From assembly GCA_009773765.1 (NCBI GenBank), contig WTWZ01000002.1, forward strand, positions 62,001-126,000: a stretch of 64,000 bases of DNA. The letters run 5' to 3'. Source of the DNA: Prolixibacteraceae bacterium (GTDB taxonomy: Bacteria; Bacteroidota; Bacteroidia; Bacteroidales; Prolixibacteraceae). Shown here piece after piece: positions 4,190-6,544 of this stretch. Each line of letters opens with the position of its first letter. The first letter of the stretch is position 1. The notes beneath the pieces are model-generated. The model was not told the DNA's origin. It saw only the letters and a list, made by a program, of their open reading frames with translations, and ran no database searches. The translations under genes were made by a program, and so were the position numbers.

Positions 4190-6003
4190 TTAAAAACTGT
4201 AATTAACTCCGCCAAACACAGTTGTTCCGGGCATGGTGTAATACCGGTTCACCTCGTAGGTTTGATTTAGCAAATTTTCGGCGCTGACATATAAACTTAA
4301 ATTTTTCAAAAGGTTATATGAAGCTTTGGCATTCAGTAAAGTGTAACTCTCCGAATTAACTTTGGGGGTTGGGTCGTTATCGAGATTTGAAATTTGCTGA
4401 ATGTTTGCTGTCAGTAAAAGTTTATTCAACCGGTAATTTGCATTGAGAAAAATGTGGTGTGCGGGTGTGGCATAAACCGGATTTTCCATGTGAATGTAAC
4501 TGTATGTGGCATTCAATGTCAGGTTTTTTGTTGCTTCGGCATTAATTGCAACTTCAATTCCCCTGTTATTTACCTTGCCCGAATTTTGCAAACCCTGGTT
4601 GGGAACAGTAACTATCAGATTATCGCCATTAAGCGAATAAACTGTAAGTTCAGCGCTCATTTTATTGTTGAAAAAAAGCTTTGAAATTCCGGTTTCGTAG
4701 CTGATAATAGTTTCGGGATTAAGATTTGGGTTTGGCCCCCACAGAAATAATTCGCGCATTGTTGGGCTTCTGAAACCTTTCGAAACGTTGGCTTTCCAGG
4801 TTGTAACTTCTCCAAATTTCCATGCAAAACCAGCCGATGGAATCCACTGGTCACCATAAACGCTGTTGTTCTGATAACGCAACCCGGCATTCAGCGTGAG
4901 TTTTTCTGCGAAAGTTTGCTGTATAAAAAAGTACGAGCCAAACTCTGTAATTGAAGTGTCGGCAAATACAATTCCTTTACCGCCCATAGCTTTCAGGTTT
5001 TCGGCCATTCCGCCATATTGGCTGTAATCTATTCCGGCAGTCAGCGAATTTCCTTCGAAAAGATGAAGTGATTCGTAAAAATTAAGGCCAAAATTGTTAT
5101 CGACAGAATGAAACCCGTCGGTGATATCATGTTCGCCAAAATTGTAAAAAAACTTAAATGCCCCCGAAGCCTTTTCAAATTCGTTTTGCAGGGTGAAAGC
5201 GCCATAACCACGCATGATATCAATGCGCTCGCCTGGTTTTGCATTGGTAATGTCAGGGCCAGGGTCGGCAGCATTAAAAGCGGCCAGACTAAAATCGGTA
5301 GTGGCGTAAAAATGGTCGCTGAAATTGTAGCCCAATTTGATATAACCGTTGGTAATTTTGAAATCGGAATGAGGCCGGTGCCCATCGGTTTGGTCGTGGT
5401 TACCGGAAATAAAAGCGCTGAATTTGTCTTTTTTGTAACCCACCGAACCCATGTATTTCTGGGTGTTGTAAGAACCGTATGAAAAACGTGCATTCCCGTG
5501 AACGCCATCCACTGTCTGCTTTTTGGTGATAATATTGATAACGCCGCCGGACCGCGGATAACTTCCACCCGCTCGGCATCCGAGGCCACATACGAATCGG
5601 GCAGCGGGTGCCCCATAATACCCATAAACTGCGGATGCCCGTCGATGAGCATTAATACACCGGTTGTCGGGTTTCCTCCTACTCCACGGATGGAAATCTG
5701 GCCGGCAGAACCGGCGGCCACCCCAAAGCCCGTAACACCCCGCTCGGTAACAAAAAGCCCTGGTACACGCCCGTTTAAAACCGGCAGCAGCGCTGACTCG
5801 TCTGATTCTTCTATGGTTGTCCTGTTCACAACCGAAACCGACATGGGAACGTTGTTCCTGCTCACTTTTGTGGGTGTTCCTGTAACCACAACCTCTTCAA
5901 TCCTGATAGTATCGGACAGATTGAAACTGAGCTGGGCATTGGTGTTCAAAAAAAACAGGACGCCCAGAATAGATGATGTTAAAAAACCGGTGTTTATTTT
6001 CAT
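4190..6003 (-). pseudogene. TonB-dependent receptor, frame broken by an internal deletion in the plug domain
   Basis: Plug ...ASDAERVEVIRGPA (frame of 5041..6003) continues as GGVINIITKKQTVDGVHGNARFSYGS in the frame of 4190..5512; the usual S-x-LYGSNAMG segment is absent at ~5543-5550. Confidence 0.85.
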
Positions 6004-6042: not shown

Positions 6043-6070
6043 GTGTTACTAATTACATATTTCGTGTTAC
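6043..6070. promoter_or_regulatory. Putative NikR-like operator upstream of the TonB receptor
   Basis: GTGTTAC-N14-GTGTTAC; its first 12 bases gtgttactaatt are identical to the site in front of the nikR-like gene. Confidence 0.6.
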
Positions 6071-6087: not shown

Positions 6088-6489
6088 TTACTGCGCCTTA
6101 CTCATTACCAGTTTCCCGTGTTCAATTCCTTTAATACTGATGAGTTTTTCCGAAATTTCGGTCAACCGTTTCGAAGGGCCTTTTACAGCAATAATTTCCA
6201 TGTAATTAACCTCATTCAGATAAAACCCCTGAACAGATAAAATCACATCGCTGTATTCAAACTGAATTTCTGACGATTTTTTAAGGATTTCGCGTTTTTG
6301 ATTATTAAAAACAAGCACAACTGCACCTGCCACAATATTGTCGCATTTCCATTTTTCTTCGGTCAGGTATTTTTCGATTAAATGACGAATGGCCTGCGAA
6401 CGGTTGGCAAACTGATTGTCGGCCACAAATTCGTCGAGGTCTTTCAGCAAATCTTCGTCTAACGAAACTCCAAACCTGGAAACAGACAT
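6088..6489 (-). CDS. NikR-like ribbon-helix-helix/ACT regulator with non-canonical ligand site
   Basis: SRFGVSLDEDLLKDLDEFVADNQFANRSQAIRHLI N-terminus; C-terminal IQFEYSDVILSVQGFYLNEVNYMEIIAVKG aligns without gaps to the NikR metal-binding segment. Confidence 0.88.
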   Translation of the reverse strand: MSVSRFGVSLDEDLLKDLDEFVADNQFANRSQAIRHLIEKYLTEEKWKCDNIVAGAVVLVFNNQKREILKKSSEIQFEYSDVILSVQGFYLNEVNYMEIIAVKGPSKRLTEISEKLISIKGIEHGKLVMSKAQ

Positions 6490-6490
6490 T

Positions 6491-6518
6491 GTGTTACTAA
6501 TTTTAAAATTCGTAGCAC
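6491..6518. promoter_or_regulatory. Putative autoregulatory operator of the NikR-like gene
   Basis: GTGTTAC-N14-GTAGCAC, an inverted repeat with one mismatch, immediately upstream of the start codon. Confidence 0.65.
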
Positions 6519-6544
6519 GAAAATAGGAAAAAAGTTTGAAACAA

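Follow-up and report, generated by a model that had tools for sequence, protein, structure and literature searches.

A NikR-family repressor without the His3Cys nickel ligands in a Prolixibacteraceae genome, and its relatives across the order

NikR is a textbook metalloregulator, and the known regulator of the lar genes, LarR of L. plantarum, is a Crp-Fnr protein unrelated to it. The His3Cys nickel site was described in a 2022 paper as conserved among NikR homologues, and in H. pylori NikR the nickel-driven allostery needs Trp54, which couples nickel to DNA binding, and the apo protein retains weak DNA binding (PMC9860126). In the literature covered, which excluded most subscription papers, neither NikR clades lacking the ligands nor lar genes controlled by NikR were described. 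Here we describe a NikR-like repressor encoded in a 64,000-nucleotide stretch of contig WTWZ01000002.1 from a Prolixibacteraceae bacterium (the window), together with its relatives in the genus and the order.

The open reading frame has exactly the predicted bounds, starts with ATG and encodes 133 aa (Table 1), and it is the only NikR_C gene in the window genome (G000). The RHH domain and ACT-like C-terminus proposed in the original prediction were borne out by Pfam matches above cut-off to RHH_1 (3.5e-7) and NikR_C (1.1e-19) and by an AlphaFold2 model (pLDDT 87.7) with a predicted NikR topology, for which all of the 50 PDB matches listed by Foldseek were NikR, the modelled metal-binding domain giving rmsd values of about 1.0-1.3 A. 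The protein also passed NCBIfam NF003381, 'nickel-responsive transcriptional regulator NikR' (121 bits against a cut-off of 105), and among solved structures P. horikoshii NikR (2bj1) came closest to it (E 4e-27). Along the metal-site stretch IQFEYSDVILSVQGFYLNEVNYMEII it aligned with 2bj1 without gaps, H/H/H/C becoming F77/G88/Y90/Y96, and FGYY was again read at the ligand columns when 107 NikRs from the order were aligned and numbered by E. coli NikR, where His76, His87, His89 and Cys95 of E. coli correspond to Phe77, Gly88, Tyr90 and Tyr96. Both comparisons agree with the gapless alignment of the original prediction, which was therefore correct in placing Phe, Gly, Tyr and Tyr at the four ligands. 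The protein thus lacks the square-planar nickel ligands, and the secondary His columns of its HHHC relatives (those with all four ligands; window positions 63, 64, 80 and 93) hold Asn, Gln, Ser and Glu instead. Across the whole protein the only His and Cys residues are H36, C49 and H124, none of them inside the metal-site segment or able to fill the nickel site, and neither the NikR alignment nor the structure model places any other His or Cys there; the loss of all four ligands, and of the secondary His residues as well, supports the earlier claim that the His3Cys site is gone. Sequencing error or chance was excluded, because close relatives carry the same replacements and are under purifying selection. 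Judged from its sequence, the protein is a member of the NikR family by fold and descent and, by the defining site, not a nickel-responsive NikR, and the automatic label 'nickel-responsive' is probably wrong for this protein and similar ones.

Table 1. Features at the nikR locus, in window coordinates
Feature	Position	Strand	Description
NikR-like repressor	6088..6489	-	133 aa; RHH about residues 5-43, NikR_C/ACT-like 54-129; F77/G88/Y90/Y96
Operator 1 (predicted)	6491..6518	-	28-bp inverted repeat GTGCTAC-N14-GTAACAC; stops one base short of the nikR start codon
-7 promoter element match TATTTTCG	6518..6525	-	read from sequence; directly abuts operator 1
Operator 2 (predicted)	6043..6070	-	GTAACAC-N14-GTAACAC, half-sites in tandem; located after nikR and ahead of the TonB-receptor gene
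TonB-dependent receptor, N-terminal part (plug domain)	5041..6003	-	leaves the family frame near 5540-5548
TonB-dependent receptor, C-terminal part (beta-barrel)	4190..5512	-	other frame; intact ~615-aa gene in relatives

At least one NikR_C gene was present in 36 of the 37 genomes of the window's GTDB genus, and nearly all of the NikR-bearing genomes lacked the four ligands, the exceptions including G023, whose NikR is HHHC, and three genomes that retain a single His. We refer to this set of relatives, with the named members Draconibacterium, Mariniphaga and Maribellus (Prolixibacteraceae), as group A. The ligand positions of group A read FGYY, YGYY, FGYF, SGYY, LSFL or YSFL, with one His retained (FGHY-type) in G014, G029 and G033, and the cultured type strain D. 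orientale FH5T carries a ligand-poor NikR as well (L173). Another NikR type (IRIH, VRIH or IRIQ) was found at lar genes in five genomes of the genus (G001, G012, G019, G026 and G027) and was the sole copy in G001 and G026; this type heads lar operons at L035, L036, L041, L042 and L047. Both ligand-poor types, and no HHHC NikR, occur in G019 and G027, and G012 has a second NikR_C fragment (C18:16563-16694) that is broken by an internal stop. In an even draw from the order, 97 of 394 genomes had a NikR_C match, and about a quarter of the full-length NikR genes were ligand-poor. Partial and other states in the order comprised IHHC, HSHC, AIHC, TLHC, QQYC and LQNC, and the 82 non-HHHC NikRs kept none (49), one (25), two (6) or three (2) of the ligands. 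Weak NikR_C matches without an evident RHH, in frames of about 84-88 aa, were also seen (G060:C6:51590-51787, G270:C20 and G376:C1).

On the DNA-binding side, R5, S9, S31 and W47 were identical in all 82 ligand-poor NikRs, the RHH-strand residues R5, G7 and S9 were the same as in HHHC relatives, and W47 of the window protein aligned with Trp54 of H. pylori NikR. The two predicted operators in the window each present two half-sites over about 28 bp beside their putative target, and TATTTTCG at the edge of operator 1 is what we take to be a Bacteroidota -7 element of the TAnnTTTG type. A 28-bp site of this kind adjoined nikR in 25/25 group-A loci, with a -7-like element at its edge in 24 of the 25 against 0 of 300 control windows; similar sites lay downstream of nikR in most group-A loci and in several HHHC loci, and the same operator type was found at canonical (HHHC) NikR genes. 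A search of the whole window genome with the operator pattern returned the two nikR-flanking sites and one further, GC-rich match that looks like chance, and among 14 congeners only the nikR-flanking sites clearly recurred, other matches being near the control count. The claim that the RHH domain and the operator architecture are retained is therefore supported by R5/G7/S9, W47 and the operators of the group-A loci.

In trees, the HHHC NikRs enclosed the ligand-poor ones; parsimony needed four changes on a tree built without the four ligand columns, and a single ligand-poor clade was mildly rejected, again with these columns left out (AU p 0.03). On this sequence evidence, ligand-poor NikRs have about four origins from HHHC ancestors within the order, and the ligand loss is old, clade-wide and repeated rather than an isolated mutant. 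Purifying selection on the group-A NikR was evident from a median dN/dS of 0.068 (22 pairs), a value confined to group A, as HHHC values were left out for poor pairwise alignment. The ligand positions G-Y-Y changed jointly to S-F-L in two separate group-A sub-clades, a change that looks like packing, not metal coordination. Such packing would suit a constitutive repressor or autoregulator, in which the repacked pocket locks the DNA-binding state without ligand and the protein level alone sets expression of the TonB receptor: the group-A pocket is filled with aromatic or hydrophobic residues, the joint change fits packing better than a specific ligand, pockets are not alike between clades, and the weak DNA binding of apo H. 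pylori NikR (PMC9860126) offers a precedent. We nevertheless regard this as possible but rather unlikely, as W47 is invariant and the gene is under strong purifying selection, and an input-less regulator would be unusual to retain for a single receptor. The conservation pattern also bears on a second alternative, which we consider improbable, that metal or redox sensing has moved to Cys49 in the interdomain hinge, two residues from W47, perhaps joined by H36 or H124 from its own or an adjacent chain. C49 was present in 82/82 ligand-poor NikRs vs 28/63 canonical ones, the latter mostly the closest kin of the variants; part of the sample, however, was fetched with a pattern including KW[KQ]C, which inflates the count, and the occurrence of C49 in HHHC relatives makes it older than the ligand loss. 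H124 was likewise found in 29/29 group-A proteins yet also in 60/63 HHHC ones, H36 was variable, and one Cys with two His per chain is a poor ligand set.

In group A a single TonB-receptor gene, with a product of about 615 aa, comes after nikR, and in a receptor tree these receptors branched beside receptors linked to canonical HHHC NikR; an excess of His or Met in the receptor as a clue to its cargo showed no clear difference between groups. In the window the receptor gene is broken at 5539-5548 (minus strand), where the frame that matches residues 6-155 of a relative gives way to another that matches residues 163-614; either a genuine lesion or an error of assembly may explain this, the copies of relatives being intact. 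Among genes of nickel use, a search confined to LarC, HypD, urease alpha and CODH found none of the four in the window genome or in most group-A genomes. HypD was present in G007 and G019 and LarC in G011, G015, G019, G025, G027 and G031, and the Lar-type NicO transporter was found in 5/30 group-A genomes, all of which carry lar or hyp genes, and was absent from the window genome. The absence of LarC, HypD, urease, CODH and this transporter from the window genome and most congeners, together with the broken receptor gene, could be taken as signs of a decaying relic, the nickel system having been lost in the lineage and the nikR/TonB pair being on its way out. Near-universal retention in the genus, intact receptors of about 615 aa in relatives, a dN/dS of about 0.07 and the preservation of both operators all run against this, so that decay is, for the clade, very improbable.

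Outside group A, many ligand-poor NikRs head operons of LarE, LarC, LarB and a NicO/UreH-like transporter, the LarE, LarC and LarB identities being backed by NCBIfam. A ligand-poor NikR stood directly before lar genes at no fewer than 19 loci, and an HHHC NikR at 0/63; as a ligand-poor-only trait, this linkage was set aside, since with about four independent changes a phylogenetic test is powerless. Within the genus, a predicted operator lay upstream of larE in the congeners G031 and G011, and in G011 an exact operator was also located 21 bp upstream of a gene for a LarA homologue (Pfam Lar_N). No operators were detected within the small loci near LarC in three HHHC genomes, nor around the genes for hydrogenase maturation in G007 and G019. 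From the sites at larE and the larA homologue, control of the nickel-pincer nucleotide (NPN) system would most likely fall to the ligand-poor regulator in genomes that have this system. The NPN link cannot explain why the nikR/TonB pair is kept in most group-A genomes, because LarC is missing there. Near-identical NikRs from different genomes were also seen to differ in neighbourhood, those with F at 76 (L191/L199) preceding a TonB receptor in genomes without LarC and those with L at 76 (L192/L198) preceding lar genes. In G255:C4, G336:C652 and G450:C23 a change of frame divides LarC, which is reminiscent of L. plantarum larC, a gene with a programmed frameshift.

With site loss, conservation, operators and linkage directly supported, we favour, with moderate confidence, a repressor that derives from NikR, controls a TonB/Lar regulon and has ceased to switch through Ni(II) bound by His3Cys; the original prediction had allowed for another ligand, a metal bound elsewhere or constitutive action. 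Since the ligands were lost, yet the DNA-binding part and the operators were kept across this marine Bacteroidota group, a familiar regulator has probably been re-tuned here to some other signal. Under such a mechanism, an RHH/ACT protein, a tetramer by analogy, would bind the 28-bp operators of two GTAACAC half-sites; binding to operator 1 at the -7 element would block the promoter and cause autorepression, and binding to operator 2, upstream of the TonB-receptor gene, would repress the receptor. In relatives that keep the NPN pathway, the same type of regulator would also act through operators in front of larE-C-B-transporter operons, and in a single genome through one in front of a larA homologue. 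The old metal pocket appears to have been repacked in group A with aromatic or hydrophobic combinations (F/Y, G, Y, Y or L/Y, S, F, L), and the signal may be something other than free nickel at the old site, e.g., a metal complex or metabolite tied to the TonB cargo. Because the regulatory domain and the coupling Trp are kept under selection, the window regulator most likely still switches, with an input that is not free nickel in the old site, although strong domain conservation could come from subunit packing alone. The pockets vary by clade (FGYY, LSFL, QQYC, IRIH, LQNC and KNYI), and one new ligand for all ligand-poor NikRs is unlikely because of this difference. It is a tentative and rather doubtful idea that the ACT domain has been repurposed to sense a ligand of organic or metal-organic nature, for instance the nickel-pincer nucleotide itself, a precursor or a TonB-imported chelate; if true, a Bacteroidota regulator family would adjust the supply of a cofactor in response to that cofactor, or to what carries it, and not to free nickel.

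Ligand-poor versions that retain DNA recognition account for about a quarter of the NikR-bearing genomes in the even draw from the order, and the natural series of 4, 3, 2, 1 and 0 ligands offers material for asking how a metal switch is lost or re-tuned. Compared with canonical NikR (E. coli, H. pylori and P. horikoshii), the window protein shares the RHH and ACT-like fold, a gapless alignment with PhNikR through the metal segment, linkage to uptake genes and the invariant coupling Trp, and its 28-bp operator type is common to Bacteroidales HHHC NikRs; it differs in having no His3Cys ligand or secondary His position, in host genomes that usually lack the classical nickel enzymes, and in an adjacent target that is a single TonB receptor, not nikABCDE or NikMNQO. 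The Bacteroidales HHHC NikR-TonB pairs (e.g., L136, L138, L142 and L146) resemble it in gene order, similar operators and a closely related receptor, whereas they keep all four ligands, and genes for hydrogenase maturation were present in most of the HHHC genomes tested. The Lar/NPN system (LarA, LarB, LarC and LarE) differs in that the window genome lacks LarC; its likeness lies in the operators before larE and the larA homologue in congeners and in the sister ligand-poor NikRs heading lar operons, and this link suggests a way into the transcriptional control of NPN supply.
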